Source: Sphingomonas parva (ex Maeng et al. 2020) (GTDB taxonomy: Bacteria; Pseudomonadota; Alphaproteobacteria; Sphingomonadales; Sphingomonadaceae). Taken from it: a stretch of DNA of 64,000 bases. Position numbers and translations under genes: made by a program. The stretch covers positions 1 to 64,000 of the forward strand of contig NZ_SPDV01000010.1 of the NCBI RefSeq assembly GCF_004564275.1. Direction: 5' to 3'. Below are positions 46,911 to 64,000 of the stretch, piece by piece (positions within the stretch are counted from its first letter, which is position 1; every line of letters starts with the position of its first letter). The notes beneath the pieces are model-generated. The model had not been told where the DNA came from. It saw nothing but the letters and a program-made list of their open reading frames with translations, and did no database searches.

Positions 46911-47138
46911 GCGGCGCTCTCCCTTTGTGCGAGCAACATGTGGCAAGGCCCGGCTCACATCGAGTTGGCCTAGATTTGTCATGACGGTGCCCAGCGGTCA
47001 ACGCAGACCCGGAAGCATAATTCTAAGTCCTTGAAATCAGGCTTGTCTTTGACCGGATTTCCGCGCCACCAAGAGGGTTTTGCGGTCTGCGCCACGTCGT
47101 GCTAGCCTGCTGCTGGCATTAAAGAGGTATTATTGCGG

Positions 47139-48926: not shown

Positions 48927-50078
48927 ATGGATCAGGCATCGCAACGGACGGACGCGGTCGCGCGCGGCTCGGGGGGGCGCCTGCTGTCGCTCGACGTGCT
49001 GCGCGGACTGACGGTGATCGGCATGATCCTGGTGAACTCCGCCGCCGGCGTCGGCGATCGCGCCGAGGTCTTCCCCACCCTGCTCCACTCGCACTGGCAG
49101 GGCTTGACGCTGGCCGACGTCGTCTTCCCCGGCTTCCTGATGATGGTGGGCGTCTCCATCCCGCTGGCGATGCGCAGCGCCGCCGAGCGCGGACTGGATG
49201 CCGATCAGGCAAGGCACATACTCGGCCGCACCATCCGCCTGTTCGTGCTCGGCTTCGTGCTCTCGAACCTGTGGTACTTCTCCGATTTCTCCGCGACCAG
49301 CTGGCGGCTGTTCGGCGTCCTGCAAAGGATCGGCCTAGTCTATGGCGCCTGTGCGATCCTCTTCCTGCTCTGCGGTCCGCGCGTGCGGCTGGCGATCATC
49401 GCCGCGCTGCTGATCCTTTACTGGCCCCTGACGCTGCTGCCGCAACCGGACGGCCTCTCGACCGACCTCTGGGTTCGCGGCCACAATTTCGTCGGCGCTT
49501 TCGACCGCCTGCTGCTCGGCGCCGGCAACCACAATTACGTGACCGGCCCGGAAGGCTATGATCCCGAGGGCCTGCTCGGCACGCTTCCGGCGATCGCGCA
49601 CGGCCTGATCGGCGTCGCCATCGGCGAATATCTGCTTTCCGCCCGTGGCAAGGCAAGCGCCGTCCGCCTGGCGGTGCTGGGCGCAACCATGGTCGCGGCC
49701 GGCCTCGCCTGGGGTCTCGTCTTCCCTGTGGTGAAAGACATCTGGTCGAGCAGCTTCGTCCTGCTCACCTGCGGCATCACCGCTCTGGTGCTCGCGCCGC
49801 TTCACCTCTGGCTCGACGGACCGGACCAGCACGGTCTGGGCAAGCGGCTGGTGCTCGCGGCGACCCTGCCGTTCGGGATCAACGCGATCGCGGCCTATGT
49901 CATCCACATGCTGACCGGGAACATGCCCGGCTGGGACCTCCTGCTCGTGCCGTTCGAGGTGACCCGGGACGCGATCGGCGATCGTCTGGCCTCGCTGCTT
50001 CCGATCCTGCTCTACATCGCCTTCATCTGGGCCTGCGTCGAGGCGCTGCGCCGCAAGCGCTGGTTCGTGAAGATCTGA
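48927..50078 (+). CDS. NagX-type membrane protein (HGSNAT/DUF5009-like)
   Basis: A 383-residue inner-membrane protein with about ten hydrophobic segments. It opens SLDVLRGLTVIGMILVNSAA, then HSHWQGLTLADVVFPGFLMMVGVSIPLA, the hallmark of heparan-alpha-glucosaminide N-acetyltransferase-like proteins and bacterial NagX. NagX genes recur in GlcNAc regulons and are proposed to help transport or modify amino sugars. It starts 17 bp after the GntR stop, following GGGGCGGA. The exact reaction is not established. Confidence 0.85.
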   Translation: MDQASQRTDAVARGSGGRLLSLDVLRGLTVIGMILVNSAAGVGDRAEVFPTLLHSHWQGLTLADVVFPGFLMMVGVSIPLAMRSAAERGLDADQARHILGRTIRLFVLGFVLSNLWYFSDFSATSWRLFGVLQRIGLVYGACAILFLLCGPRVRLAIIAALLILYWPLTLLPQPDGLSTDLWVRGHNFVGAFDRLLLGAGNHNYVTGPEGYDPEGLLGTLPAIAHGLIGVAIGEYLLSARGKASAVRLAVLGATMVAAGLAWGLVFPVVKDIWSSSFVLLTCGITALVLAPLHLWLDGPDQHGLGKRLVLAATLPFGINAIAAYVIHMLTGNMPGWDLLLVPFEVTRDAIGDRLASLLPILLYIAFIWACVEALRRKRWFVKI

Positions 50079-50146: not shown

Positions 50147-51202
50147 ATGGCTGAAGCGGATCCGACCTTCGACATCGACACGCTGCCCCCGGTGCGCGAA
50201 ATCGATGCGCGCGGGCTGACTGCGGAGGGGTTCGCGCGGGACGTCGCCTCGCGCTACGAGCCGACCCTGCTGCGCGGGCTCTCCGCCGATTGGCCTGCTG
50301 TCCAGGCCGGCCTCCAGCCGCCCGCGGCGATTCGAGACTATCTCGCCCGCTTCGACAGCGGCATGCCGATCAAAGCGTTCATGGCGCCGGAAACGACCGA
50401 GGGTCGCTTCTCTTATCGGCCGACGATGGATGGCTTCAACTTCACCATCGTCGACACCAAGCTCGCCTTCCTCCTCCAGACGCTCATCGCCGTCGCAGAG
50501 AAGGGCCAGCGCCAGGCGATCTATCTGGGCTCGACCGCGGTGCGACAGCTGCTCCCCGGCTTCGAGGAACAGAACGCCATGCCCGTTCTCGCCGGCAAGG
50601 CGGACGCCGAGCCGCGGATCTGGATCGGCAACGATACCAACGTCTCCGCCCATTATGACGAGGCGGACAACATCGCCTGCGTCGTCCGCGGACGCCGCCG
50701 GTTCGTCCTGGTCCCGCCCGAGCAGGTGGCGAACCTGTATGTCGGCCCGCTCGAGCGGACGGTGGCGGGACGGCCGACCAGCCTGGTCGATCTGTCCCGG
50801 CCCGATTTCGAGCTCTACCCGCGTATCCGTGACGCGCTCGCCACCGCGACCGTCGCAGACATGGGACCCGGTGACGGCCTGTTCATCCCCAGCCTGTGGT
50901 GGCATCATGTCCGCGCCACGGGGCCGCTCAACATCCTCGTCAATTACTGGTGGAGCGATGCGCCGGCCGACGCGGGATCGCCCTTGCACGCGCTCGCCCA
51001 CGGCCTGCTCACGATTAGCCACCTGCCCGAGCCGAAACGTCGGGCCTGGCGCGCGCTGATCGACCATTACGTCTTTCAGCTGAACGGCAATCCCGCGGAG
51101 CACATCCCACCGGCGGCGCGCGGGCTGCTCGGCGAGTCCACCCCGCAGCAGCGGGCGATGCTCAAGCAGTTCCTCCGCCAGATGCTCAGCCAGCTCGGCT
51201 GA
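50147..51202 (+). CDS. Cupin/JmjC-type Fe(II)/2-oxoglutarate dioxygenase-like protein
   Basis: A 351-residue cytoplasmic protein with a cupin-8/JmjC core. The iron ligands fit His169 and Asp171 in SAHYDEADN and His253 or His254 in PGDGLFIPSLWWHHV. Family members hydroxylate protein side chains or small molecules. Relatives of this protein recur beside tryptophan-halogenase genes and TonB receptors in caulobacters and sphingomonads, which fits its place here, but their substrate is not known. The ATG at 50147 has only a weak AAGCGG upstream; a start 13 codons earlier is possible. It follows the NagX gene by 68 bp and could be read through from it. Confidence 0.82.
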   Translation: MAEADPTFDIDTLPPVREIDARGLTAEGFARDVASRYEPTLLRGLSADWPAVQAGLQPPAAIRDYLARFDSGMPIKAFMAPETTEGRFSYRPTMDGFNFTIVDTKLAFLLQTLIAVAEKGQRQAIYLGSTAVRQLLPGFEEQNAMPVLAGKADAEPRIWIGNDTNVSAHYDEADNIACVVRGRRRFVLVPPEQVANLYVGPLERTVAGRPTSLVDLSRPDFELYPRIRDALATATVADMGPGDGLFIPSLWWHHVRATGPLNILVNYWWSDAPADAGSPLHALAHGLLTISHLPEPKRRAWRALIDHYVFQLNGNPAEHIPPAARGLLGESTPQQRAMLKQFLRQMLSQLG

Positions 51203-51210
51203 GCCGACAC

Positions 51211-51240
51211 GAAAAGGGCAGCGGCCACGGCCGCTGCCCT
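51211..51240 (-). terminator. Terminator between convergent cupin and small secreted-protein genes
   Basis: AGGGCAGCGGCC and GGCCGCTGCCCT form a 12-bp stem around a short loop. On the minus strand it is followed by TTTTCG, so it mainly ends the small secreted-protein gene; it may act in both directions. Confidence 0.75.
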
Positions 51241-51261
51241 CGTTCGACCAGGTGCCGGCGA

Positions 51262-51705
51262 TCAGCCGTTGGGCGAGGCGTTCGCCGCCGCGACGGCCGC
51301 GTCGAACTCGGTCTTGCCCATCTGGATCAGCAGGCCGTTCTTGTCCTTGCCGAAGGCGTCCACCGGGACCTTCACCTTGCCGCCGGGCGCGGCGACGATC
51401 ACGCCGGTCACGTCGAGGCTGTCGATCGTGCCGAGCGTCACGCCGGCGTTGCCATGCACGATCGTACCCGCGACCAGATCCTCAACCGTGGCGGCGACCG
51501 GACCGCGACGCCGGCCGCCCTTGCGATCCTTGGCGCCGATCTGACGGTTGTACTCGGCGTTCACTTCCTGATTGCCGCGCGCGACCGCCTTCGAATCCGC
51601 GCTCCCCGGTGCCGGCCCGCCGCCGCCCATCGCCTGGGCGAGCGCAGCGTCGGCGCCGAAAAGCATGGCAAAAGCGGCAATCAACGTCTTCGTCTTGGTG
51701 TTCAC
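51262..51705 (-). CDS. Small secreted protein with PRC-barrel-like C-terminus
   Basis: A 147-residue protein with a signal peptide (MNTKTKTLIAAFAMLFGADAALA). A Gly-rich, then basic linker (KDRKGGRRRG) leads to a beta-rich region, VEDLVAGTIVHGNAGVTLGTIDSLDVTG and GKVKVPVDAFGKDKNGLLIQM (split here), that resembles a PRC-barrel or related small barrel. The start is GTG with GGGAGG seven bases upstream. It is transcribed away from the first halogenase gene. I cannot assign a function. Confidence 0.7.
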   Translation of the reverse strand: MNTKTKTLIAAFAMLFGADAALAQAMGGGGPAPGSADSKAVARGNQEVNAEYNRQIGAKDRKGGRRRGPVAATVEDLVAGTIVHGNAGVTLGTIDSLDVTGVIVAAPGGKVKVPVDAFGKDKNGLLIQMGKTEFDAAVAAANASPNG

Positions 51706-51858
51706 CCGAACCTCCCTGAACCTTTCGACCGACCGAATAGCCGCTCCGCTCGGCACCGCGCAACGGTGCGGCGCACGACGCCATAGTTGCTGTGCGGCAG
51801 CGCCAAATGCGCTAGCACCCGCGAACAGAGCCGATGCCAGAGAGGGAATGAGCGCAGG

Positions 51859-53394
51859 ATGAATGGGGAGCCGATCCGCAACATCGTGATCGTCGGCGGG
51901 GGCACTGCCGGATGGATGACCGCGGCGGCGGCCGCGCGCTTCCTGGCCGGCGGCGGCAAGCGCCGCATCCGCCTGATCGAATCGGCCGAGATCGGCACGG
52001 TCGGCGTCGGCGAGGGCACGATCCCGCCGATGATCGAGTTCAACCAGCAGCTCGGCATTCCGGAAGCGGATTTCCTGCGCGAGACCAAGGGCACCTACAA
52101 GCTCGGCATCGACTTCGTCGGCTGGGGCGCGGAGGGCGAACGCTACTTCCATCCGTTCGGCAAGCTCGGCCTCAACCTCAACGGAGTCGACTTTCACCAA
52201 CTCTGGCTGAAGCACCGCAGCAATCCCGCGGTCGGCCCGATCACCGCCTATTCCATTTCTGCGCTCGCGGCGCAGGAGCATCGCTTCGCCCATCCGGACA
52301 AGAGCGGCCGCTCCGCGCTCACCAACATCGGCTACGCTTATCATCTCGATGCCGGCCTCTACGCCGCAATGCTGCGCCGTTATGCCGAAGCGGGAGGTAT
52401 CGAGCGGATCGAGGGCCGCATCGTCGACGTGGCCCGTGATCCGCAGAGCGGCCACGTTACGGCGGTGACGCTGGCTGACGGCCAGCGGATCGAGGGCGAG
52501 CTGTTCATCGACTGCTCCGGCTTCCGCAGCCTTCTGCTCGGCCAGACGCTCGGCGTTGCGTTCGAGGACTGGAGCCACTGGCTGCCGTGCGACCGCGCGA
52601 TCGCGGTGCCGAGCGCGCGCCGAGAGCCGATCACGCCGTTCACCCGCTCCATCGCGCACAAGGCCGGCTGGCAGTGGCGGATCCCGCTGCAGCACCGGAC
52701 CGGCAACGGCCATGTCTATTCCAGCGCCTATCTGGGTGACGACGAGGCCGAGCGCATCCTGGTGGAGCATCTCGATTCGGCGCAGATCGGCAACTTCAAC
52801 CGGCTGCGCTTCACGGCCGGCCGCCGGGCGCGATCCTGGGAGGCCAATGTGGTCGCGATCGGCCTGTCCAGCGGGTTCCTGGAGCCACTGGAATCGACCA
52901 GCATCTATCTCATTCAGTACGGCATCCACCGCCTGTTCTCGCTGTTCCCCGACACCGGCTTCGCGGAGGCCGAGCGGCGCGAATACAACCGCTTCATGAG
53001 CGAGAGCTACGAGGCGGTACGCGACTTCATCATCCTCCATTATCAGGCGACGCGGCGGCCGGAGCCGTTCTGGCGTGACGTGCGCGCGGTCGAGATGCCG
53101 GACAGCCTGCGCCGCAAGATCGAACTGTTCGCCGACAAGGGCCGCATCTTCCGCTACAGCGACGAGCTGTTCGAGCTGCCGAGCTGGGTGGCGGTAATGC
53201 TGGGCCAGGGGATCGTGCCGAGCGGCCACGATCCGCTCGCCGATTCGCTGCCGGACGACCAGGTCGTCGCCGCAATGGCGGAGCTCCGGAAGGGCTATGC
53301 CAAGATTGCCGGCCAGCTGCCGACGCACGAGAGCGTCATCGGCCAGGCGCTCGCGGCTGCGGGCGGGCAGCAGGCGGTGCGCCAGAGCCTCTAG
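51859..53394 (+). CDS. Tryptophan-halogenase-type flavoenzyme 1
   Basis: A 511-residue FADH2-dependent halogenase homologue. It has the FAD-binding IVIVGGGTAGWMTAAA, the catalytic Lys81 in GTYKLGIDFVGW, the WxWxIP tract as GWQWRIPLQHRTGNG and the catalytic Glu345 in GFLEPLESTSIYLIQ. All residues needed to make and use hypohalous acid are present. In family members Lys and Glu position the halogen and substrate. It stands alone on the plus strand; its stop shares the four bases CTAG with the stop of the convergent second halogenase. The ATG at 51859 follows AGAGGG and GCAGG. A reductase gene for FADH2 supply is not adjacent. Confidence 0.9.
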   Translation: MNGEPIRNIVIVGGGTAGWMTAAAAARFLAGGGKRRIRLIESAEIGTVGVGEGTIPPMIEFNQQLGIPEADFLRETKGTYKLGIDFVGWGAEGERYFHPFGKLGLNLNGVDFHQLWLKHRSNPAVGPITAYSISALAAQEHRFAHPDKSGRSALTNIGYAYHLDAGLYAAMLRRYAEAGGIERIEGRIVDVARDPQSGHVTAVTLADGQRIEGELFIDCSGFRSLLLGQTLGVAFEDWSHWLPCDRAIAVPSARREPITPFTRSIAHKAGWQWRIPLQHRTGNGHVYSSAYLGDDEAERILVEHLDSAQIGNFNRLRFTAGRRARSWEANVVAIGLSSGFLEPLESTSIYLIQYGIHRLFSLFPDTGFAEAERREYNRFMSESYEAVRDFIILHYQATRRPEPFWRDVRAVEMPDSLRRKIELFADKGRIFRYSDELFELPSWVAVMLGQGIVPSGHDPLADSLPDDQVVAAMAELRKGYAKIAGQLPTHESVIGQALAAAGGQQAVRQSL

Positions 53395-54911
53395 ATCAGC
53401 GCCCCCCCGCCCGGCCTCGAGGCGACGGCCTCGAGGAACGCCTGGTGCGGCGGCAGCCCGTCCACGCGTTTCTGGATCGCCGCGCGGATCTGGGCCAGCG
53501 TCACCCGCAGCTCGTCGCTGGACATGTTGTCGGCGAGCGGATGGTAGCTCTCCGGCTCGAAGCCCTGGCCGTAGAGGATCGCGAACCAGTTCGTCTCGTG
53601 GAACGTGTCGAAGCCGCTCGGGAACACCTGGGCGCGGCCGCGAAACAGATCGAGCTTGGTGGCAAGGCTGTCCGGCGGCTCGATGTCCTGACAATGACGC
53701 CAGAACGGCTGATCGCGCTCGGTCAGCTTGTAGTGGGCGATCAGGAAGTCGCGGATGGAATCGTAGACCTGGTTGGTCTCGTCGTTGAACCGGGAGAGGA
53801 TCGCCGGGTGGAAATCGCGGTTCGGGAACATGTCGAGCAGCTTGTTCACCGCGATCTGGATGAGGTGGATGCTGGTCGATTCCAGCGGCTCGAGGAAGCC
53901 GGCAGCGAGCCCTACCGCCAGGCAGTTCTTCTCGAAGCACACGCGGCGGCGCCCGGCCTTGAAGCGGAGGACGCGCGGTTCGGCCTGAGCAGCGCCGTCG
54001 AGGCGCGACAGCAGCTTCTCGGTGGCCTCCTCCTCGCCGATGAAGGCGCTGGCGAACACATAGCCGTTGCCCGTCCGGTGCTGGAGCGGGATGCGCCATT
54101 GCCAGCCGGCCTCGCGGCCGGTGACGGTGGTGAACGGCGTAGGATCATTGGTGCGCGCGCACGGCACCGCCACCGCGCGATCACAGGGCAGCCAACGGCT
54201 CCAGTCCTCGAACGGGACCTCGAGGCTGTCACCGAGCAACAGGCTCCTGAAGCCCGAGCAATCGACGAAGAACTCGCCGGCGACGCTGCGCCCGTCCTGC
54301 AGGGTGACCGCGGCGATGAACCCGGTCTCAGCGTCGCGCCGCACAGCGACGATGCGCCCCTCGATCCGCTCGACGCCGCGTGCCTCCGCAAAGCGGCGCA
54401 GGAAGGCCGCGTAGAGCGACGCATCGAACTGATAGGCGTAATTGATGTTGGGCAGCGCGCCGCCGGTTGGCGGGGTTCGCGCGAAGCGGCCGACCCGCGC
54501 TGCTTCGGTCTCGGCGCTGAACCGGGAGAAATCGGGATTGCCCCCCTCCTGCACCCAGCGCAGCCAGAAATGGACGAAGCCGACACGATCGGGAAGATCG
54601 GCGCCGAGCAGGCCGAACGGATGGAAGTAGCGGTGTCCCGGCCGCCGCCAGTCGACGAAATCGATGCCGAGCTTGAACGTGGCGTTGGTCTCGCGGACGA
54701 ACGTATCCTCGTCGATCCCGAGCATCTTGTTGAACAGCAGGATCGGCGGAATCGTCGCCTCGCCGACGCCGACCGTCCCGATCTCCTCCGATTCCACCAG
54801 CGTGATCGAGACGTTCTCCGTGCCGACCACTTTCGCCAGCGCGGCGGCCGTCATCCAGCCGGCCGTTCCGCCGCCGACGATGACGATGCTGCGGATCCGG
54901 GGATCGTTCAT
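53391..54911 (-). CDS. Tryptophan-halogenase-type flavoenzyme 2
   Basis: A 506-residue paralogue with all key motifs: IVIVGGGTAGWMTAAA, Lys80 in NATFKLGIDFVDW, GWQWRIPLQHRTGNGYVF and Glu344 in GFLEPLESTSIHLIQ. It is the last gene of a three-gene minus-strand operon and its ATG overlaps the stop of the degenerate paralogue by 4 bp. The C-terminal part ends DGLPPHQAFLEAV, a segment all family members here share in form. Halogen, substrate and site of action are unknown; relatives from similar clusters halogenate indole in vitro. Confidence 0.9.
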   Translation of the reverse strand: MNDPRIRSIVIVGGGTAGWMTAAALAKVVGTENVSITLVESEEIGTVGVGEATIPPILLFNKMLGIDEDTFVRETNATFKLGIDFVDWRRPGHRYFHPFGLLGADLPDRVGFVHFWLRWVQEGGNPDFSRFSAETEAARVGRFARTPPTGGALPNINYAYQFDASLYAAFLRRFAEARGVERIEGRIVAVRRDAETGFIAAVTLQDGRSVAGEFFVDCSGFRSLLLGDSLEVPFEDWSRWLPCDRAVAVPCARTNDPTPFTTVTGREAGWQWRIPLQHRTGNGYVFASAFIGEEEATEKLLSRLDGAAQAEPRVLRFKAGRRRVCFEKNCLAVGLAAGFLEPLESTSIHLIQIAVNKLLDMFPNRDFHPAILSRFNDETNQVYDSIRDFLIAHYKLTERDQPFWRHCQDIEPPDSLATKLDLFRGRAQVFPSGFDTFHETNWFAILYGQGFEPESYHPLADNMSSDELRVTLAQIRAAIQKRVDGLPPHQAFLEAVASRPGGGALI

Positions 54912-56404
54912 GCGCTGTCCTGTCTGGCCGCGACCCCGGCCAGCGACGCCTCGACCGTCGGCATCGCCCGAACCTGATCGCCGATCGCGCGCAGGCGCTG
55001 CTGGATCGTTTCCATATGCTGCTGCTGCGAGAGCAGATCGACGCGCGGGTCATAGCCGCGTGGCGCAACGCCGTGCCCCGCGAGCAGCGCGGTCCAGCTT
55101 TCTTCCTGGAAGGTCTCATCCTCCCGCAAGGGGATCATGCCCCGTGCCGCGAACAGGCGGATCTTTTCTTCCAGCGATTCCGGGCCCGCCGCTTGCCGCA
55201 CGCGATCCCAGAACGGCTCGTCGTAGCGGCGATTGAGCTTGTAATGGGCCGCCTGGAAGTCCCGCAGGTTGACGGCGTGGGAGTGCATCAGCCGCGTGTA
55301 GGCCACTGCTTCCATCATGTTGCCGGCGTCGGCGGGGAAGAGCGTGATCAGGTGCGAAACGGCGAGATGGATCAGATGAAGCTGCACTGCGGACAAAGGC
55401 TCGAGCGCCACCGCCGAGTCTCCCAGGGCGACGCAATTCGCGACCCAAGGGCGCTGCCGTATGCCGGTCCGGAAGGGGGTGACGAAGGCGTCCTGATCGA
55501 GCGCGATGCCCGCGACGATCGGCAGAAGCTCGCTGGTCTCCGCATCCGGGCAGTCCCTGCTGGCGTAGCAGGCGACCAATGCGGTGCGATCCTGCAAGGG
55601 ATGGAGCCCGACCCAGCCGCCCTTGAAGGCGGAAATCTCGCTGAACGCGGGGAGCGGTGAAAGCTTCTTGCCCGATGCGGCGAGGATGCGGTCGCAGGGC
55701 AGCCACTCCGCCCAAGAAGTGAAATCGGAACCGAGTGCACCGATCAGGGTGGCGTCAGCGCCGGTCGCGTCGACGTAGAGATCGGCGCCCATTCGGCGGC
55801 CATCCTTCAAGGCGATCTGCTCGATGCCGTGATCGCCCGCCGAGACTGCGCCGATCGTGCCGGAGACGATCTCCACCCCTTCCTGAAGAGCGGCGCGACG
55901 CAGCAGGGCGACGTAGCTCGAGGCATCGAGATGGTAGCCGGGGGCGGCCGATACGGGTCCTGCGGGCAGATGGTCGGACGGGACGCGTCCCTGCTTGGCG
56001 GCGGCCGCCGCAAGGCTGAAATCCTCGAGCTCGACCCTCAGCCCCTCACCCTTCGCCTTCAGCCAATATTGGAAGAAGCCGGCATTCCCGCCGCTCGTCG
56101 CCGGCGTGTCGTAACCGATCAGGAACGGACGCCGCCCTCGCCCCCAGTTGGAAAAGCGTTGCGCCATCACCGGGACGCCGGCGCATGCTGCGAGCACGTC
56201 CGCCTCCTCCAGCCCGAGCATCCGGTTCAGCCCATGAAGGGCCGGCAGACCCGCGTAGACGTCGACCGGCTTCAGCAGCGACGGCAGCTCGAGGAGCTGG
56301 ACCCGCACGCCGGTTCGCCCGAGGGAACGGCAGATCGCAAGCGCGGCGACGAACGCCGCGGCGTCGCGGCCGACGACCAGGACGCTGGACACCCGCCGGC
56401 TCAT
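54908..56404 (-). CDS. Degenerate halogenase paralogue (probable pseudoenzyme)
   Basis: A 498-residue protein that aligns along its whole length with the neighbouring halogenases but has lost their catalytic features. The FAD motif GGGTAGW is VGRDAAAF. In an ungapped alignment from LGIDEDTF (LGLEEADV here) to the following Trp, the catalytic Lys is Val79. WQWRIPLQHR has become WVGLHPLQDR, and the catalytic Glu of EPLEST is Ser in EPLSAVQLHLIH. The frame is intact and both ends overlap the flanking halogenase genes by 4 bp, so it is expressed and maintained. It may be a partner or scaffold for the active paralogues. It is not a pseudogene by any frameshift. Confidence 0.85.
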   Translation of the reverse strand: MSRRVSSVLVVGRDAAAFVAALAICRSLGRTGVRVQLLELPSLLKPVDVYAGLPALHGLNRMLGLEEADVLAACAGVPVMAQRFSNWGRGRRPFLIGYDTPATSGGNAGFFQYWLKAKGEGLRVELEDFSLAAAAAKQGRVPSDHLPAGPVSAAPGYHLDASSYVALLRRAALQEGVEIVSGTIGAVSAGDHGIEQIALKDGRRMGADLYVDATGADATLIGALGSDFTSWAEWLPCDRILAASGKKLSPLPAFSEISAFKGGWVGLHPLQDRTALVACYASRDCPDAETSELLPIVAGIALDQDAFVTPFRTGIRQRPWVANCVALGDSAVALEPLSAVQLHLIHLAVSHLITLFPADAGNMMEAVAYTRLMHSHAVNLRDFQAAHYKLNRRYDEPFWDRVRQAAGPESLEEKIRLFAARGMIPLREDETFQEESWTALLAGHGVAPRGYDPRVDLLSQQQHMETIQQRLRAIGDQVRAMPTVEASLAGVAARQDSA

Positions 56405-57939
56405 GGGTGTGCTCCACTGGCCTGCACGAGGGCGAGCGCCGGCGCGTAGCGCCCGACGAAATCCTCGTGGGCGGGCATCGCCTCCGCCCGTTGCCGGACC
56501 TCGTCGCGCAGCCGCTCGAGATCGGCGATCAGGCGGTCGTACGGGAGCCCCTCCGCGAGCGGATGATGGCCGGTCGGGATCACCCCCTGCCCGGCGTAGA
56601 CCGCGACCCAACTCGGCAAGGTGAACAGGCCGTCGCGATACTGCTCGATATATCCGCTGTGCTGGAACAGCGCGAGCTTGCGCTGCAGGCTCTCCGGGAT
56701 CGGCATCGCGCGACAATAGCGCCACAACTCGGAATCGTCGCGGCCCGTGGCGTGATAATGGAGGATCAGGAAATCACGGATTCGCTCGTATTCGATCTCG
56801 ATCCGGCGGTTGAACTCATCAGCCAGGGCCGGATCGACGGGCGTCGTCGGCAGGAGCGGCAGCAGGTGCATGATCGCGACCTGGATGAGGTAGATGCTGG
56901 TTGATTCCAGCGGCTCCAGGAAGCCGCTGGCGAGCCCGAGAGCCACGCAGTTACGAGACCAGGATTTCAGCCGCCGGCCCGCCTCGAACCGCAGCATCCG
57001 CGGCTCGCCCAGCGCCTCTTCGGGGAGGTTCTGCATCAGGGTGGCCGCAGCCTCGTCCTCGCTGATGAACTGCGATGCGAAGACATGGCCATTGCCGGTG
57101 CGATGCTGCAGCGGGATGCGCCACTGCCATCCCGCCTCGCGGCAGGTGGACCGGGTGTAGGGGCTGAAATCGGTCGCCCGGGCGCTCGGCACGGCAAAGG
57201 CGCGATCGCAGGGCAGCCATTGCGACCAACTCTCCCACTCCGCGCCGAGCGTCTGGCCCAGCAGCAGGGAGCGAAAGCCGGAGCAATCGACGAAGAAGTC
57301 GCCGGCGACATCCTCACCGGATTCGAGCGCGAGCGCGGCAATTTCGCCATTGAGCGGATCGAGCTTCACCTCGCGGACCTTGCCTTCGGTTCGGACGACG
57401 CCCGCGCTCTCGGCGAGCCTGCGCAGCAGCCGGGCATAAGTCGAGGCATCGAAATGATAGGCGTAGCTGTAGGTGGAATCGATCCGCTGCGGGTCCGCAT
57501 TGGGAAAATCGAAGCGGTTGAGCCGGCTCGCGACCACGGCATAGGAGAAATCGCCGATATCGAGGTCGGCCCCGCCCTGCACAGCGCGGAGCCAGTGCTG
57601 GTAGAAGGGCAGGCCGAGTGCCGGACGCCCGTGATCACCGAAGGGGTGGACGTATCGCCGTCCTTTCCCGCCCCAGTCGACGAAGTCGATGCCGAGCTTG
57701 AAGGTGGCGCTGGTCTCCCGCATCATCTCGACCTCGTCGAGGCCGATCAGATCGTTGAACGACTTCATGTGCGGCAGCGTCGCTTCGCCGACGCCGACCG
57801 TGCCGATTTCCTCGGATTCGATCAGCCGGATGCGGCACACGCCGGGACCGAGGACGCGAGAGAAGGCGGCTGCCGCCATCCAGCCTGCCGTGCCGCCGCC
57901 GACGATGACCAGGTTCAGTGGCTGCTTCACAGGCTTCAC
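56401..57939 (-). CDS. Tryptophan-halogenase-type flavoenzyme 3
   Basis: A 512-residue paralogue with complete motifs: LVIVGGGTAGWMAAAA, Lys81 in SATFKLGIDFVDWGG, GWQWRIPLQHRTGNGHVF and Glu345 in GFLEPLESTSIYLIQ. It is the first gene of the three-gene operon; the degenerate paralogue's ATG overlaps its stop by 4 bp. Upstream, a terminator separates it from the TonB receptor gene, so its promoter should lie in 57940-58024. Close similarity in length and motif order to the two other intact paralogues indicates local gene duplication. Confidence 0.9.
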   Translation of the reverse strand: MKPVKQPLNLVIVGGGTAGWMAAAAFSRVLGPGVCRIRLIESEEIGTVGVGEATLPHMKSFNDLIGLDEVEMMRETSATFKLGIDFVDWGGKGRRYVHPFGDHGRPALGLPFYQHWLRAVQGGADLDIGDFSYAVVASRLNRFDFPNADPQRIDSTYSYAYHFDASTYARLLRRLAESAGVVRTEGKVREVKLDPLNGEIAALALESGEDVAGDFFVDCSGFRSLLLGQTLGAEWESWSQWLPCDRAFAVPSARATDFSPYTRSTCREAGWQWRIPLQHRTGNGHVFASQFISEDEAAATLMQNLPEEALGEPRMLRFEAGRRLKSWSRNCVALGLASGFLEPLESTSIYLIQVAIMHLLPLLPTTPVDPALADEFNRRIEIEYERIRDFLILHYHATGRDDSELWRYCRAMPIPESLQRKLALFQHSGYIEQYRDGLFTLPSWVAVYAGQGVIPTGHHPLAEGLPYDRLIADLERLRDEVRQRAEAMPAHEDFVGRYAPALALVQASGAHP

Positions 57940-58024
57940 CCATCCATTCCGAAGTGGCGCAACCTCTCCAAGTGCGCGCCGGCTGGCAAGAGACGCGCGG
58001 TGGAGCGGCCCGACGTCAGGTCAA

Positions 58025-58058
58025 GAAAAAGGAGGCGCCGCCTGCGGCGACGCCTCCC
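58025..58058 (-). terminator. Terminator of the large TonB receptor gene
   Basis: On the minus strand GGGAGGCGTCGCCGCAGG and CGGCGCCTCC form a long GC stem followed by TTTTTCTTG. It lies 18 bp after the receptor stop and before the halogenase operon, so that operon needs its own promoter or read-through. Confidence 0.85.
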
Positions 58059-58076
58059 AGTTGCTTACCGTTCCGA

Positions 58077-61000
58077 TCAGAAGCGGACGCGGACGCCTGC
58101 GGTGAAGCGCCGGTCGTTCTGGAACCAGCCGTTCGGCATCAGCGTACGCCGGCCCTCCGGGCTCTCCTCGTCGGCAACCTGCGTCCTCAGCACCGTCTTG
58201 GTGTTGAGCAGGTTGCTGCCCTGCAGGCTGAGCTCGATGTTCTCGGTGATGCCGTAGCGGATCGAGCCGTCGAGGAAGCCCGCGCCCTCCTGCCAGACCG
58301 GCAGGTAGACGCAACAGTCCACCGCCGTCACCAGGTAGCGCGACCGCCAGTTGTAGGCGAGGCGCATGGCGAGCGGGCCCTTTTCGTACATGCCGACCAC
58401 GTTGAAGCTGTGCTTCGACAGGCCCTCGAGCGAGCCGGGGTTGAGCGACGTACCGGCGTTGCCGGCGTTGGTGGTCTCCCCGGTGCTTCCGACCGGCGTC
58501 AGGTTCGAGTTCGGCACGCCGCTGTTCTTCACGTAGGTGTAGTTCGTCTGGATGCCGAGACCATCGAGCGGCTTGGGCAGGAAGTCGAAGAAGCGCTGAT
58601 AGGCCGCTTCGAAGCCGTAGATCTTGGCGCCAGATCCGTTCGCCGGACCGCGGACGAAGACGTCGCGGGTGACGTCGCCGCGGGTGAACGACTGCACGAA
58701 CGTGCCGTACTGGATGTAGTTGGAGAACGTCTTGTAGAAGCCGGCGAGCGAAAACTGACCCGCATTCCCGAAATAGTTCTCCAGGCTGACGTCGAACTGC
58801 CAGGCCGTGGTCGGCTTCAGGTACGGGTTGTACGCGCTCGCCTCGTAGGTCGGGTTGACGCCGGTGATCACGCCTGCCGAGTTCTTGACCCAGCGGGGAT
58901 CGTTGACCTCGATCGGGTTTGGCAGGCCGGCCGAGATCGAAACGAAGTTCTTCAGGAAGCCGATATCGGGCCGCGACAGGGCGCGCGACGCGGCGAATCT
59001 GACGAGCCAGCTGTCGGTGAGATCGACCCGCATGTTGAAGCTCGGCAACCAGTGACGGTGCTTGGCCTTCGCGACGCTCTCTTCACCGCCGCCGCTGATA
59101 AACGAGGCATCCTGGGGCGAGAGGTAGCAGAATGCCGGATCGTTGGCCTGCGGCGGCGGAGCCGGCTGGCCGGGCTGCTGTGCCGGCGGCAGGCCGTCGC
59201 AGACCGGCCGCCCGTTGATGTCGAACCGCTGGAAGTTGTCGACTGGATAACGGACGAAGCCGCGGCTTTCGTTGCGCGTCTCGACGTAGCGCACGCCGAG
59301 GTTACCCGAAACCCGCAGGCTGCCCACGGTCGCATCGTCGCCGCCGAAGCGGAGCATGGCATAGACCGAGCGCACGTCCTCGGACACGTCGGCGATTTCG
59401 TTGTCGACGAAGCAGCTGTCCGGGAGCTCGTTCAAGCGGGTGCAGATCGGGCGGAACTCGCCCACCCCGATAAGGTCGCGGCTGTAGCGATCGGCATCGT
59501 GGTTCTTCAGCGCGTTGAACGGAACGAACGGGAAGGTGCCAAGCTGGCCGCCGAAGAACGGCGCGCCGAACGGCGAGACCTCGATCATGCCGGTCGGATA
59601 GCCCTTGAAATCACCCGACGGCGCATAGCTGTCGAGGTTCCAGTACGGATGCGCCGTGCCGGTGTCCGTCCAGGTGTTGGCGACGTTCGCCCAGTTGTAG
59701 GTGCTCCACTGCACCGTCTGCTCGCGCTTCGCGTAGCGGCCGCCGAGCTTGATCGAGTCGAGCCAGTTGGTGCCGAGATCGTATTCCACGTCGCCGCGGA
59801 ACGCCCACTGGTTGCCTTCGCTGTCCTCGAGGTGATCCATGACCGAGCGGAGATACCAGTTGTTCGGATTGGCGAGGCCGCCCGGCGACTGGTTGATGTT
59901 GTCCGGCGGAAGCAGCGAGATCCGCGGATAGCGGCCGCTCGCGTCCAGCGCGACGTTGGCGAACGAGTGATGCTCGACCGACAGATCGTAATTGTCGACC
60001 GTGGAATCGACATACTGGCCGTCGAAGTTGAAGCGCAGCCGGTCGGTCGCCTCCCACTTGATGTTCAGGCCCGCATCCTGGGTCATGTTGCGGTTCTGGT
60101 TGATGCGGCTGCCGGTGCCGACGTCGACGCCGTAGGTCGGCCGGCCGAAGGCATCAACCTTGCAGCCCGCGAACGGCGGCGTCGTCCAGTTGTAGCAAGC
60201 GTTGAACATCGGCTGACCGGCCTGGTTGACGCCGTAGCCCGGATTGGCGCCGGGCTGGCCCCACCACATGTTCTGGCCCTGGCGGACGATCGTGCCCGAC
60301 TGGAAGAAGCCGTCCTCGTCGAAGGTGAAGGCGCCCGCACCCGCCATCGGAACGGGGATGCGGTCGCTCAGATTGGTATCGCTGACCCGCGTCCGGACGT
60401 TGAAGCTGTACAGATCCGGGCCGATGCCGAACGATCCGAAGGTGCGCTCCTGCCACGCGTTCTCGTAGGTCGAGCGGTTGAACTGGGCGGTGACCAGCCA
60501 CTTGTGATCGAGGTCGCGCCACTGGGCCGCGAGGGCGATACCCTTGCGCTCACGACGATATTCGTTGTCGAGGAAATTGACCGACGCCGGAATATAGGCG
60601 GTGTCCGGCGCCCCGGTGCCGAGCAGGCTGGCGGTGTTGGCATCGTCGATGATCGCGACACGGCCGTACTGGATGCCCTGGGAGGCGGTACGGACGCGCG
60701 AGTAAGCGAGATTGCCCATCAGGCCGAACTCGCCGAGGCCCGTCTCCCAACGGTTCGAGTAGAAGACGTTCGCGTCCGGCGTGATTGCGCCGGACAGATC
60801 GTTGTAGTTGAGGTTGGCGCCGAACTGGATCAGCTGCCCGGGCGCGTCGAACGGAACGCGGGTGCGCAGGTTGATCGAGCCGGCGATGCCGCCCTCGATC
60901 ATCTCGGCGGTCTGGTTCTTGTAGGTGTCGACGCCGGCCATCAGCTCCGGCGTGACGTCGCCCCAGCTCAGGCCGCGCGACGAGTTGGCGCTGAACGTGT

Positions 61001-61469
61001 CGCGACCGTTGAACTCGGAGCGGACCTGCGGAAGGCCGCGAACGATGACGCCCGACGGCTCGGCCGAGAAGTGGGCGGTATCGCTGCTCGCCGCGAAGCG
61101 GTTGACGGTGATGCCGGGGACGCGCTGCAGCGCTTCCGCAACCGACTTGTCGGGGAAGGCGCCGATGTCGGTCGCCGTGATCGAATCGACGACGGTGTCG
61201 GCGTTGCGCTTGATCGTCGCAGACGTCTGCAGAGCGCGCCGCTGACCGGTGACGATGATGTCGCTGTCCGACGCATCATCCGGATTGCCGGCGGCCGACG
61301 GATCGGTCGAGGCGCTGACCTGCGTCGTCGTGTCTTCGGGCTGCGCGTCCTGGTCCTGCGCATGAGCCGCAGGGGCAAGGCCGATCAGGGCGAGACCGAG
61401 AGCCATTGTGGAGGCACCGCCGCGCAGCATGCGGGCCTGAGCCGAAAACCTACCGATAGACACGTTCAT
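58077..61469 (-). CDS. Large TonB-dependent receptor (carbohydrate-type)
   Basis: A 1130-residue outer-membrane receptor. A signal peptide ends near PAAHAQDQD; a low-complexity Ser/Asp/Thr stretch with the TonB box (DIIVTGQRRAL) follows, then the plug (SITATDIGAFPDKSVAEALQRVPG) typical of Caulobacter/Xanthomonas receptors linked to oligosaccharide uptake, then a barrel of about 950 residues ending RRFTAGVRVRF. The start follows GGAGGTGG. A LacI-type box lies about 104 bp upstream. It is next to the halogenase operon, a recurring pairing in this group. The ligand is unknown; plant or microbial glycan fragments are the best guess. Confidence 0.93.
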   Translation of the reverse strand: MNVSIGRFSAQARMLRGGASTMALGLALIGLAPAAHAQDQDAQPEDTTTQVSASTDPSAAGNPDDASDSDIIVTGQRRALQTSATIKRNADTVVDSITATDIGAFPDKSVAEALQRVPGITVNRFAASSDTAHFSAEPSGVIVRGLPQVRSEFNGRDTFSANSSRGLSWGDVTPELMAGVDTYKNQTAEMIEGGIAGSINLRTRVPFDAPGQLIQFGANLNYNDLSGAITPDANVFYSNRWETGLGEFGLMGNLAYSRVRTASQGIQYGRVAIIDDANTASLLGTGAPDTAYIPASVNFLDNEYRRERKGIALAAQWRDLDHKWLVTAQFNRSTYENAWQERTFGSFGIGPDLYSFNVRTRVSDTNLSDRIPVPMAGAGAFTFDEDGFFQSGTIVRQGQNMWWGQPGANPGYGVNQAGQPMFNACYNWTTPPFAGCKVDAFGRPTYGVDVGTGSRINQNRNMTQDAGLNIKWEATDRLRFNFDGQYVDSTVDNYDLSVEHHSFANVALDASGRYPRISLLPPDNINQSPGGLANPNNWYLRSVMDHLEDSEGNQWAFRGDVEYDLGTNWLDSIKLGGRYAKREQTVQWSTYNWANVANTWTDTGTAHPYWNLDSYAPSGDFKGYPTGMIEVSPFGAPFFGGQLGTFPFVPFNALKNHDADRYSRDLIGVGEFRPICTRLNELPDSCFVDNEIADVSEDVRSVYAMLRFGGDDATVGSLRVSGNLGVRYVETRNESRGFVRYPVDNFQRFDINGRPVCDGLPPAQQPGQPAPPPQANDPAFCYLSPQDASFISGGGEESVAKAKHRHWLPSFNMRVDLTDSWLVRFAASRALSRPDIGFLKNFVSISAGLPNPIEVNDPRWVKNSAGVITGVNPTYEASAYNPYLKPTTAWQFDVSLENYFGNAGQFSLAGFYKTFSNYIQYGTFVQSFTRGDVTRDVFVRGPANGSGAKIYGFEAAYQRFFDFLPKPLDGLGIQTNYTYVKNSGVPNSNLTPVGSTGETTNAGNAGTSLNPGSLEGLSKHSFNVVGMYEKGPLAMRLAYNWRSRYLVTAVDCCVYLPVWQEGAGFLDGSIRYGITENIELSLQGSNLLNTKTVLRTQVADEESPEGRRTLMPNGWFQNDRRFTAGVRVRF

Positions 61470-61572
61470 TCACCACCTCCCCAAGCCGGAGGCGACATCA
61501 CGGCCGCCCCTCGGTTCGCCCGTCTCCGCCAAAGCGGGTGCAGGCCTGTTATCGCCGAGCGACGAATGGGCG

Positions 61573-61586
61573 TGGTAGCGTTAACA
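61573..61586. promoter_or_regulatory. LacI-type operator upstream of the TonB receptor
   Basis: TGGTAGCGTTAACA matches the box at 37692 (TGATAGCGCTAACA) at 12 of 14 positions. It lies 104 bases before the TonB receptor start. This suggests the receptor and the xylan/glucan locus 24 kb away answer to the same or a related sugar-sensing repressor. Confidence 0.55.
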
Positions 61587-61770
61587 ACGGAGGGTATAAA
61601 AATTCGCAAGAAGCGATCGGAGCCTCGGGCTCCACTCCCCCCCTGCGATTCATGCCCCTGCCATGGCGCATCCTCGCCCGTTCGTATGACTCGAACTTGA
61701 CAGGCGTTGTAAGTGGCGGCCGACGAGACGGTCAATTGCTTTGCGTTAGCGGAGCCCGCGCACATTGGCT

Positions 61771-61824
61771 TTGTCGGCAGCTGTGGCAAGCCGACAACAC
61801 TTTCGCTGCAGGGTGCCCCTGCAG
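61771..61824 (+). promoter_or_regulatory. Two perfect hairpins in the leader of the beta-helix gene
   Basis: TTGTCGGC (61771-61778) pairs with GCCGACAA (61790-61797). Eight bases on, CTGCAGGG (61806-61813) pairs with CCCTGCAG (61817-61824). They end about 48 bases before the start codon and could be an operator pair or a structured RNA leader. Confidence 0.4.
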
Positions 61825-61872
61825 TAAGTCCCGACCGGGAGCGATTTCTGTCGCACGGTCCGGAGAAATTGC

Positions 61873-63666
61873 TTGCGAGGGCGAAGCGGCAGGACGGCAT
61901 TGCTGGCGGGACTGCTGTTCGCCCAGCCACCTGCGGCCGAGACGACACCGCTCGGCACGATTGCCGCGTTGCCCGCGGCCGAAGCGCCCGCGGGGCTCCC
62001 GTTCGTGGAGATCGAGGCCGAAGATGCCGCCTTCGCCGGCCGCGCGATCGGGCCCGATCGGACGTTCACGAGCCTGGCCGCCGAGGCCTCGGGTCGCCGC
62101 GCCGTCCTGCTCGCCGGGCCGGACGACCATGTCGAATTCACCCTGCCCGCCCCCGCGAACGCCGTCATCGTCCGCGCCGCAATCCCGGACGGGCCGGGCG
62201 GCGAAGGACGCGACGCCGCCCTCGCCGTTCACGTCGGCGAGGAGCGGATCGGCACCCTCGCCGTCACGTCGCGCTACGGCTGGTTCTACGGGCGCTATCC
62301 GTTCACCAACAATCCGTCCGACGGCGCTGCGCACCATTTCTATGACGAGACGCGCCTGCTGCTTGGCCGCACGTTGCCCGCCGGCACCCAAATTCGCCTG
62401 AGCATCGACCAGGCAGCGCCGGTGCCGTGGACCGTCGTCGACCTTGCCGATTTCGAACTGGTCGCGCCGCCCGCAACCGCGCCTGCCGATGCCCTCTCGA
62501 TCCTGGCTTTCGGGGCCGACCCTTTCGGCGCGCGCGACTCGTCGACAGCGCTTGCCCAGGCGATCGCACAGGCGCGGCGACGCGGCGTGCCCGTCTGGAT
62601 ACCGCCCGGCACCTTCCGGATCGACCGGCAGATCATCGTCGATCGGGTGACGATCGCCGGCGCGGGCTTATGGCATTCGGTGCTGCGCGGAAACGGAGTA
62701 GGGCTCTACGGCCGCAAGGCGCCGCGCGGCTCGCGCCGGGTGGTTCTCCGCGACTTTGCGATCCTCGGCGAGGTCAAGGAGCGCGTCGACGCCCTGCAGC
62801 GCGCGGGTGTCGGCGGGTCGCTCGGCGAGGGCTCCGAGCTGCGCAACCTGTGGCTGCAGCATCACAAGGTGGGAGTCTGGCTGGACGGGCCATTGCGCAG
62901 CCTCGCCATTCGCGGCCTTCGCATCCTCGACAACACGGCGGACGGGCTCAACCTGCGGCGCGGCGTCAGCGACGCGGTGGTGGAAGGGAATTTCGTCCGC
63001 AACTCCGGCGACGACGGTCTCGCCGCCTGGTCGCACCGCGAGGCCAATCACAACCTCGCCTATCGCGACAATGTCGTCGTCGCGCCGGTCCTTGCCAACG
63101 GCATCGCCATCTACGGCGGCCGCGACATCAGCGTGACCGGCAATGTCGTCGCCGACAGCGTGACGCAAGGCGGGGGCATTCATCTCGGCAATCGCTTCGA
63201 CGCGGTGCCGCTCTCCGGCACCATCACGATTGCGGACAATCTCATCGTTCGCGGCGGCAGCTTCGATCCGAACTGGCGCTTCGGGGTGGGCGCATTGTGG
63301 CTCTATGCGCTCGACGCACCGATCAGGGCGTCGATTCGGCTGCGGAATATGCGCATCGTCGACAGCACCCTCCCCGCGCTGCAATTCATTGGTCAGCGGA
63401 TCGAGGGCGTGCAGGCCGAGAACGTCCATATCACGGGCGCCGCGGGCCACGCCTTGCAGCTGCAGTCGCCCGGCGCCGCCTCGTTCCAAGACGTCGCGGC
63501 GGTCGGCGTGCGGGGCGCCGGCATCCTGGCCTGCGGCGACGGCTTCAAACCGATCGATGCCGGCGGGAATTCTGGGTGGACGGAGAAGGCCGTGTCGCCC
63601 GATCAAGCCCTGCCGCTCGCCCCAGGCTTGCCGCGCGACTGCCGTGAGCAGAGCCTGGGCCAATAA
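61873..63666 (+). CDS. Secreted right-handed beta-helix protein, probable polysaccharide-active enzyme
   Basis: A 597-residue exported protein. The signal peptide is short (GRSGRTALLAGLLFAQPPAAE). Residues about 40-200 form a carbohydrate-binding-like beta-sandwich (VEIEAEDAAF, VEFTLPAPANAVIVRAAI). From about 212 a pectate-lyase-3-type start (ILAFGADPFGARDSSTALAQAI) leads into a repeated beta-helix (LRILDNTADGLNLRRG, VVEGNFVRNSGDDGLAAW, NNVVVAP-like coils). The layout resembles GH87-type glucanases and other helix glycosidases or lyases, but the active-site set is not certain; the paired Asp in NSGDDGLA is a candidate. The TTG start follows GGAGA by seven bases. The CAZy family needs a profile search. 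Confidence 0.78.
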   Translation: MRGRSGRTALLAGLLFAQPPAAETTPLGTIAALPAAEAPAGLPFVEIEAEDAAFAGRAIGPDRTFTSLAAEASGRRAVLLAGPDDHVEFTLPAPANAVIVRAAIPDGPGGEGRDAALAVHVGEERIGTLAVTSRYGWFYGRYPFTNNPSDGAAHHFYDETRLLLGRTLPAGTQIRLSIDQAAPVPWTVVDLADFELVAPPATAPADALSILAFGADPFGARDSSTALAQAIAQARRRGVPVWIPPGTFRIDRQIIVDRVTIAGAGLWHSVLRGNGVGLYGRKAPRGSRRVVLRDFAILGEVKERVDALQRAGVGGSLGEGSELRNLWLQHHKVGVWLDGPLRSLAIRGLRILDNTADGLNLRRGVSDAVVEGNFVRNSGDDGLAAWSHREANHNLAYRDNVVVAPVLANGIAIYGGRDISVTGNVVADSVTQGGGIHLGNRFDAVPLSGTITIADNLIVRGGSFDPNWRFGVGALWLYALDAPIRASIRLRNMRIVDSTLPALQFIGQRIEGVQAENVHITGAAGHALQLQSPGAASFQDVAAVGVRGAGILACGDGFKPIDAGGNSGWTEKAVSPDQALPLAPGLPRDCREQSLGQ

Positions 63667-63684
63667 CGATGCAGACGCCGGGCT

Positions 63685-64000
63685 TCAGGGAAGAAAGACG
63701 AACCGCTGGGTCAGGCGCGGGCTGCTGAACCGCGCCTCGCCGCGGATCCAGTCCCCGTCGATTTCGGCGGAATGCGGCACGAAGCCCGGGTAGATCGCCA
63801 TCCGATTATAAGCCGGAGCGATCCGATCGAGGAGCTCGAAGCTCTCGTTGCCCGAAACCGGATAGCCCTGGCCGCTCGGCGCGATCGCCGGCCCCTTCTG
63901 GTTGAAGAACAAGGTCCCGCCGCGCGGCTCGGGGTTCAGATAGACGAGCCCGAAGATGGGCACTGGATCGACATGGGGGAGCTGCTGCACCGGATGCAGC
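63685..64000 (-). CDS. DUF6445-like protein (5' end outside the window)
   Basis: The last 105 or so codons of a gene that runs off the window edge; the frame is open to 64000. The visible part starts LHPVQQLPHVDPVPIFGLVYLNP and has RGGTLFF, then a C-terminal VPHSAEIDGDW. The HVD (HxD) motif, the strand before RGGT and the later His in VPHSAE are what would be expected of a prolyl-hydroxylase-like Fe(II) fold. DUF6445 proteins commonly sit in halogenase/TonB-receptor clusters of this group. Function is not established. Confidence 0.75.
   Translation of the reverse strand, partial: LHPVQQLPHVDPVPIFGLVYLNPEPRGGTLFFNQKGPAIAPSGQGYPVSGNESFELLDRIAPAYNRMAIYPGFVPHSAEIDGDWIRGEARFSSPRLTQRFVFLP

Follow-up and report, generated by a model that had tools for sequence, protein, structure and literature searches.

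The right-hand end of a 64,000-nucleotide stretch of the Sphingomonas parva genome (assembly GCF_004564275.1, contig NZ_SPDV01000010.1, positions 1 to 64,000; hereafter the window) carries a group of flavin-dependent halogenase (FDH) genes beside a TonB-dependent receptor. Open reading frames (ORFs) and Pfam matches place a Cupin_8 gene, four PF04820 genes, a TIGR01782 TonB receptor, a beta-helix protein and a partial DUF6445 gene between 50 and 64 kb, in a genome of 4.49 Mb with nine PF04820 genes spread over four contigs. The inventory of an initial annotation, namely three intact halogenases, a degenerate fourth, a Cupin_8 protein, a 1130-residue TonB receptor and a DUF6445 protein, was borne out by ORFs, Pfam, motifs and TIGR01782. 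That annotation set the degenerate gene aside, and it proved to be the most informative part of the locus: a conserved pseudoenzyme (pseudo-FDH), paired with one particular active-type halogenase (FDH_A). The core genes are as follows.

56401..57939, minus strand: FDH_A, intact FDH and upstream partner of the pseudo-FDH (PF04820, 608 bits; every catalytic motif; in the 37-member partner clade described below)
54908..56404, minus strand: pseudo-FDH, full-length halogenase fold without the catalytic Lys, the GVGEAT motif or the catalytic Glu (PF04820, 308 bits; motifs; AlphaFold2 model)
53391..54911, minus strand: FDH_B, intact FDH on the same strand as FDH_A and the pseudo-FDH (PF04820, 604 bits; motifs)
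51859..53394, plus strand: FDH1, intact FDH, convergent with FDH_B (PF04820, 615 bits; motifs)
58077..61469, minus strand: TonB-dependent receptor of 1130 aa, 138 bp upstream of FDH_A on the same strand (TIGR01782, 587 bits; receptor tree)

FDH_A, FDH_B and FDH1 match PF04820 at 604-615 bits and retain GxGxxG, GVGEAT, the catalytic Lys, GWxWxIP and the catalytic Glu (Glu-Ser), and are classed by sequence as PF04820 flavin-dependent halogenases. The pseudo-FDH shares their fold and PF04820 similarity and lacks the catalytic Lys and Glu. On the one strand, FDH_A overlaps the pseudo-FDH, and the pseudo-FDH overlaps FDH_B, by 4 nt at each joint. No signal peptide is visible by eye on the FDHs, whose Rossmann motif lies close to the N-terminus, so they would be expected to act in the cytoplasm.

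The pseudo-FDH recurs well beyond the window. Most of the loci compared belong either to Caulobacter or to the genus, family or order of the window, and all were chosen via FDH matches; the genomes are related, the counts are not independent and the trees are quick ones. Further named FDH-bearing loci come from Asticcacaulis, Litorimonas, Sphingomonas, Roseomonas, Pelomonas, Methylotenera and Catenovulum. Class-wide surveys of 385 genomes each, with 3-4 candidates scored per genome, served to find arrays, and their tallies (11 and 10 genomes) do not measure prevalence. In a motif table of 129 FDH-like ORFs from the first loci, each receptor-adjacent array of three or four FDHs has one degenerate member, placed behind the receptor-nearest FDH, as do a few two-FDH loci; the exception is a SapC-less triple of the L079 type, which has none. 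In total, 42 loci with a pseudo-FDH were found, 29 before and 13 after a check of new genomes.

The losses are consistent. The catalytic Lys is present in 138/138 active FDHs and 0/28 pseudo-FDHs, and in 0/13 of those found later (0/41 readable). The Glu of GVGEAT is kept in 138/138 active sequences vs 1/28 pseudo-FDHs, the second Trp of GWxWxIP in 138/138 vs 7/28, and the catalytic Glu in 138/138 vs 7/28, while the GxGxxG loop is partly kept, its last Gly surviving in 12/28. Lys and Glu served to define the active set, which makes their two columns partly circular; this does not affect the clade result. The pseudo-FDHs group as a single clade, with 21 members among 124 sequences in a first tree (SH-aLRT branch support 98) and 24 among 154 in a second with new genomes added, which left out all rows of four near-identical Caulobacter loci, one duplicate locus and short rows. 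Across six Caulobacter loci (15 pairs each; pairwise Nei-Gojobori, own script), the ratio of nonsynonymous to synonymous substitution rates (dN/dS) is 0.14-0.17 for the pseudo-FDH, vs 0.05-0.14 for FDH_A and 0.08-0.18 for FDH_B, so that the pseudo-FDH is under purifying selection where this was measured.

An AlphaFold2 model of the window's pseudo-FDH, built from an input alignment of 24 pseudo-FDHs and seven active FDHs, predicts a full FDH fold with a mean pLDDT (per-residue model confidence) of 94. Among the chains ranked highest by Foldseek, to which the fold comparison was limited, the model aligns with 9luq over 482 residues (Z 53.5, root mean square deviation 1.8) and with BrvH over 484 (Z 51.8, deviation 2.0). 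The 'degenerate' FDH is therefore a conserved pseudo-halogenase. Some copies are reduced: in L215, L216, L217 and L220 the protein has shrunk to 337-407 aa and lacks the middle of the profile, yet still scores 94-157 bits, in place and in an open frame, and the copy in L074 has 394 aa. In a metagenome-assembled genome (MAG), AP_26, the pseudo-FDH (L010, 5273-6715) carries a frame break near its 3' end, either an assembly error or recent decay.

Long branches call for caution with the pseudo-FDH clade, and a stronger test was thus built from active enzymes alone. The tree comprised 180 active FDHs; those directly upstream of a pseudo-FDH, 37 in number, form exactly one clade (SH-aLRT 98), and none of the 143 others is followed by one; left out were four near-identical Caulobacter loci, the duplicate locus and rows shorter than 280 aa, and L069_6575, whose order was hidden by an overlapping ORF, was added by hand. 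All 27 pseudo-FDHs with an identified upstream FDH share its strand, their cores starting -16 to +23 nt from its stop (core starts are approximate). Distances among FDH_A and among pseudo-FDH sequences are correlated (Mantel r 0.906, 21 pairs; 0/5000 shuffles as high), which fits the prediction of co-inheritance.

Further loci came from searching 118 genomes of the order with PF04820; 76 of these gave a match at E 1e-90. Gaps were taken among the matches listed and picked by eye before the sequences were fetched. Where listed FDHs are 1.2-2.7 kb apart, the gap contains an FDH-like ORF without the Lys in eight of eight cases, accompanied in G485 by one active FDH that was not listed; a ninth, wider gap of 3.0 kb (G498, L231) contains no pseudo-FDH. 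Among 12 other tandem or single loci that were also fetched, five have a pseudo-FDH (L225, L226, L228, L232, L234) and seven have none (L223, L224, L227, L229, L230, L231, L233).

The two genes also stay together in other arrangements. The pair sits together at the array end away from the receptor in L198, L199 and L200, likewise at the far end in L225, L226, L228 and L232, and beside a different receptor group in L073 and L078. The pair is thus conserved, abutting or overlapping on one strand, co-inherited, and located beside a TonB receptor. FDH_A also has residues of its own: Gly437 occurs in 37/37 FDH_A proteins vs 1/143 other active FDHs, of which 106/143 have Glu at this position, a residue kept in 28/38 pseudo-FDHs. 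Leu55, His57 and Tyr434 (the last in 36/37) complete the signature. The stretch with Gly437 and Tyr434 aligns with what we take to be the substrate lid of SttH, and the Gly/Glu pattern would suit a complementary specialisation of two subunits.

The link between halogenases and receptors extends beyond arrays with a pseudo-FDH. In eight genomes (seven with 1-3 contigs, one with about 20), 24 FDH clusters were set against the listed TIGR01782 matches, after weak PF04820 fragments had been dropped (G058 2960678, 2961527 and 3630622; G056 C2 535488 and 535818; G015 5463592) and split matches merged. A TIGR01782 receptor stands no more than 10 kb from 21 of these clusters, where receptor density predicts 1.75, and no more than 450 bp from 16; the naive tail probability of the adjacency is 1e-23, a figure that ignores kinship among genomes. 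The three without a near TIGR01782 receptor are L085, where the FDH stands beside another receptor type and DUF6445 (assigned by its clustering with L029), L097, and L088, whose nearest receptor is 11 kb off. A receptor was also found in 41/42 pseudo-FDH loci, at times cut by the end of the contig or stretch, the exception being a 6.2-kb contig. On a receptor tree of 84 rows, 45 of them linked, linkage needs 10 changes vs 28.4 when shuffled; receptor lineages hence hold on to their halogenases. The halogenase-receptor association suggested by the initial annotation is therefore conserved, while its inclusion of dioxygenase-like genes stands in part: the Cupin_8 link is real but partial (18/29 of the first pseudo-FDH loci), and that of DUF6445 is looser.

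Other arrangements recur as well. SapC and Cupin_8 accompany the receptor and one or two FDHs in L028, L075, L084, L206, L209 and L233, and in the two-FDH loci of this group one FDH is of a divergent GWxWDIG type; SapC was not detected in pseudo-FDH loci. Convergent pairs of active FDHs beside a shorter receptor (935-958 aa) recur in L224, L227, L229 and L230.

The genes surrounding the window's array are concerned with sugar utilisation, a context that the initial annotation missed. To the left lie a phosphotransferase system (PTS) IIA-HPr-EI gene, glycoside hydrolase (GH) genes of families GH20 and GH18, a GntR/UTRA regulator and a NagX-like gene, and farther left GH67, GH3, GH9, GH5 and a ROK protein. 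To the right, on the same contig, follow GH3, LacI, a sugar permease and an IlvD/Edd dehydratase, with LacI and the permease assigned by clustering with scanned proteins of locus L065. The remaining features of the region are as follows.

61573..61586, strand not assigned: operator-like palindrome of XylR type, one mismatch to TGKTAGCGCTAMCA, upstream of the receptor (site scan)
37692..37705, strand not assigned: operator-like palindrome of XylR type between GH3 and GH67, xylan-type glycosidases (site scan)
50147..51202, plus strand: Cupin_8 / JmjC-type protein with HxD...H (PF13621, 221 bits; motif)
63685..64000, minus strand: DUF6445 protein running off the window's right end, with its called start at contig position 64383 (PF20043)
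61873..63666, plus strand: beta-helix protein with CatAgl alpha-1,3-glucanase-like domains (PF22815/PF22816)
48927..50078, plus strand: NagX-like membrane acetyltransferase on the chitin side (PF07786; NF046061 at 124 bits, under the cut-off of 480)
48169..48909, plus strand: GntR/UTRA regulator, NagQ-like from context only (family match)
47133..48182, plus strand: GH18 chitinase-type protein (Pfam)
44337..46982, minus strand: GH20 beta-hexosaminidase (Pfam)

In the Cupin_8 protein, HxD spans residues 182-184 and a distal WWHH lies at 264 (numbering of the ORF from 50108). By gene content, the TonB receptor stands together with carbohydrate-active enzymes, a sugar regulator and an inner-membrane transporter. 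Rather than the cluster without a known product of the initial annotation, this is a carbohydrate-utilisation (CUT-type) locus, with chitin genes on its left, a xylan-type regulon around it and a xylose/xylan-type operator at the receptor promoter.

We take the 14-bp palindrome of the TGKTAGCGCTAMCA type to be the Caulobacter XylR operator. Sites of this type, with one mismatch each, lie upstream of the receptor (61573), between GH3 and GH67 (37692) and at GH3/LacI (67002), and none occurs in positions 1-36000 of the window. PMC7198004 confirms the length of the Caulobacter operator, 14 bp, and only that. A XylR-type site lies close to the receptor start in 15/22 array loci, the 22 together containing 28 sites over 451 kb. 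Judged in the same way, 4/13 later loci have one too (L218, L226, L228, L232); in L225 it falls 220 nt inside the called receptor ORF. In the Caulobacter locus L012 it is absent, and Caulobacter arrays accompany GH2, GH5 and GH35-like genes. The operator at the receptor promoter thus makes the array part of a xylan-type regulon here, though not everywhere.

A home in a NagQ-regulated chitin/N-acetylglucosamine system was also considered and dropped. Of the first mapped loci, just the window and MAG AP_26 (L010, which shares its contig with L062; clusters 21 and 23) have the array beside GH20/GH18/NagX genes, and the operator at the receptor promoter is of the xylose type. A simple palindrome and word scan of the intergenic stretches found no operator common to the chitin genes and the array.

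These observations point to a receptor-linked halogenation cassette within a sugar-uptake regulon, whose core would be an obligate pair of active-type FDH_A and its catalytically dead paralogue, a reading towards which we lean. A fixed, abutting pair of active and dead paralogues has the appearance expected of an obligate heteromer, and FDH_A and the pseudo-FDH may form one heteromeric enzyme; PMC8407142 lists BrvH, Tar14 and Thal as dimers. In such an enzyme, FDH_A would use FADH2, O2 and halide to generate the halogenating species, and the role of the dead subunit would be to hold or present the substrate or to regulate FDH_A. Less securely, the extra FDHs and Cupin_8 might act on more positions of the same target, the receptor might be made once xylan-type sugars induce the locus, and the target might be an exported protein modified in the cytoplasm before export, most simply the neighbouring receptor.

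An exported protein, perhaps the receptor itself, is the favoured though weakly supported target, since receptor and FDH stay constant while the sugar genes vary (chitin; GH43/GH3/GH67; GH13/GH97; GH2/GH5/GH35-like; GH31), and since other surface or secreted proteins are often found near FDHs that have no TIGR01782 receptor close by. For example, an FDH lies directly downstream of a 1994-aa autotransporter in L097 (1650-9537). In L029 (3319-10596) and L085 (3031-10276), an arrangement conserved in two genomes, an FDH accompanies a TonB receptor of the OMP_b-brl_4 type, DUF6445 and a GH43/F5-F8-type protein. In L016 (9204-21478; Roseomonas sp. MO-31) and L027 (4740-18999; contig C15 of the window's genome), an FDH and DUF6445 accompany an HlyC-like gene and a giant RTX repeat protein, with the ATP-binding cassette (ABC) and HlyD genes of type I secretion in L027 as well, a setting in which modification of a secreted protein is possible. 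More broadly, and only tentatively, alphaproteobacteria including Caulobacter may have dedicated protein-halogenation systems for outer-membrane or exported proteins, with a cytoplasmic halogenase set for each receptor lineage and, in the most elaborate version, a dead halogenase as obligate recognition subunit of the first enzyme.

Several observations weigh against this interpretation. L203 and L223 have two FDHs, Cupin_8 and a receptor without the pair. No receptor adjoins the FDH in L017 (which has a GH30 gene beside it) or L088, none was found for L204, and no other surface or secreted protein was seen in the parts of these loci that were inspected. In the window's genome, 10/13 TIGR01782 receptors over the cut-off have no nearby FDH, and the L113 receptor, inside the array clade, also lacks one, so that modification would be unnecessary for uptake in general. 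A comparison of 40 linked with 39 unlinked receptors (five near-identical Caulobacter rows dropped) yielded no aromatic column specific to the linked ones, and the linked receptors of L020 and L022 contain only 0.32% Trp. Purifying selection on the pseudo-FDH was measured within Caulobacter, and the complex, the halogenation and the substrate are all inferred from genes. Finally, an aromatic group on an imported glycan, such as feruloyl xylan, would likewise fit a xylan-type regulon.

Two receptor features were tried as modification sites or pair-linked motifs and rejected. W593 and W1041 are the best aromatic columns, yet they track receptor clades rather than linkage. A His-Phe insertion in the plug domain is absent in L197 and L201, where the pair is present, and present in L203, which has no pair.

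A serious rival for the xylan arrays, if a rather unlikely one overall, is that the cassette might halogenate or oxidise a small aromatic on or with the imported glycan (feruloyl groups of xylan, phenolic glycosides) for detoxification or catabolism. The XylR-type operators at receptor starts in the window, in 15/22 array loci and in 4/13 later ones would suit it, as would the GH43, GH3, GH67, GH9, SASA-type esterase and IlvD/Edd dehydratase genes that adjoin some arrays; BrvH does halogenate free indole, though slowly, according to PMC5945002. However, other FDH clusters lie in chitin, starch-type (GH13/GH97), GH2/GH5/GH35-like and GH31 loci, or adjoin an autotransporter or an RTX/type I secretion set, settings for which no common aromatic ligand is expected. 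No feruloyl esterase-type match was found among the scanned proteins, which are a selection.

It is less probable still that the pseudo-FDH is an independent protein, such as a sensor or receptor chaperone, that merely stays in the operon and is not a subunit of FDH_A. Survival of the last Gly of the GxGxxG loop in 12/28 copies would be compatible with a separate function, and reduction to 337-407 aa, as in four pseudo-FDHs, is perhaps intolerable for the mate in a symmetric dimer. Yet the pseudo-FDH tracks FDH_A and not the receptor, standing beside another receptor group in L073 and L078 and at the far end in L198-L200, and it accompanies 37/37 FDHs of the partner clade against 0/143 others.

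A third possibility, which appears remote, is that the FDHs tailor a diffusible secondary metabolite or signal that the receptor re-imports. Characterised FDHs belong mostly to natural-product pathways, and here a receptor adjoins the FDHs. No polyketide synthase (PKS), non-ribosomal peptide synthetase (NRPS), ribosomally synthesised peptide (RiPP) or terpene core occurs among the Pfam matches of the scanned ORFs, a selection short of several ORFs to the left of 44 kb and of a few between 64 and 80 kb. The linkage moreover recurs many times within single genomes (G015 has 16 full-length FDHs) and in varied sugar loci. That the degenerate gene is an ordinary decaying duplicate in an array produced by accidental tandem duplication can be dismissed, since the frame-broken L010 orthologue on its MAG contig and the shortened copies (394 aa in L074, 337-407 aa in four others) are outweighed by the dN/dS of 0.14-0.17 in six Caulobacter loci, the single clade spanning Caulobacter and the window's family and order, and the fixed place behind FDH_A, which in our view already refute it.

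The proposed FDH_A/pseudo-FDH enzyme can be set beside several known systems. BrvH (6FRL), Xcc4156 (6Y1W) and the Pseudoalteromonas structure 9LUQ are the nearest solved relatives of FDH_A and of the pseudo-FDH family by sequence and among the nearest by fold, and have the same catalytic motifs as FDH_A. Work on BrvH dealt with that enzyme by itself, acting on free indoles; as far as PMC5945002 was accessible, a second FDH gene adjoins that of BrvH, and the term 'TonB' is absent from the main text. A dead halogenase partner was not mentioned in the results of a literature search on pseudoenzyme halogenases, nor, for the terms heterodimer and inactive homolog, in the accessible part of PMC8407142, the one paper searched for them. 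A link between tryptophan halogenases and TonB receptors was likewise not found in a search made mostly without subscription papers, which is no proof of absence, and the accessible part of PMC11337851 is silent on it.

PrnA, RebH, Thal and SttH share fold and catalytic motifs with FDH_A, at about 29-35% identity in structural alignments, and differ in setting, which here is sugar uptake and not a natural-product cluster. The YY pair of the SttH substrate lid, which presumably binds the amino-acid part of Trp, is YR in FDH_A. MibH (5UAO), a lanthipeptide peptide tryptophan halogenase and a precedent for halogenation of ribosomal peptides, has the same fold (Z 38.5 with FDH_A, 41.6 with the pseudo-FDH); it differs in that no RiPP precursor was seen at the window's locus, and we know of no dead partner for it. 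QhpG, GoxB and LodB act on residues of partner proteins. Only sub-threshold NCBIfam matches to them were found (pseudo-FDH to QhpG at 40 bits and to GoxB at 35 bits; FDH_B to LodB), and membership was rejected, the scores being far under the curated cut-offs of 240, 400 and 400. The CUT loci of Xanthomonas and Caulobacter have the receptor, regulator, glycosidases and inner-membrane transport in common with the window's locus, which differs by its halogenases; the term 'halogenase' is absent from the main texts of the two CUT and NagQ/NagR regulon papers searched for it.

Many bacterial genes are labelled 'tryptophan halogenase'. For enzymes of the BrvH type no natural substrate is known, and they act slowly on free indole, according to PMC5945002. 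The present comparison suggests that such FDHs act as two-part machines tied to outer-membrane receptors and not as ordinary antibiotic-making enzymes; the association of FDHs with sugar receptors, and the dead copy that accompanies one branch, would account for possible failures of single-enzyme assays. Should the two proteins form a complex, the pseudo-FDH would represent an undescribed pseudoenzyme partner in the halogenase family, as far as the literature search on pseudoenzyme halogenases reaches. If sugar receptors are halogenated, they would carry a post-translational modification of a new kind.

Elsewhere in the window, a 436-aa ORF without a Pfam match (17252-18562) adjoins an Asp/Asn beta-hydroxylase (PF05118, 18477-19403), and a 1939-aa ORF lies at 11384-17203.

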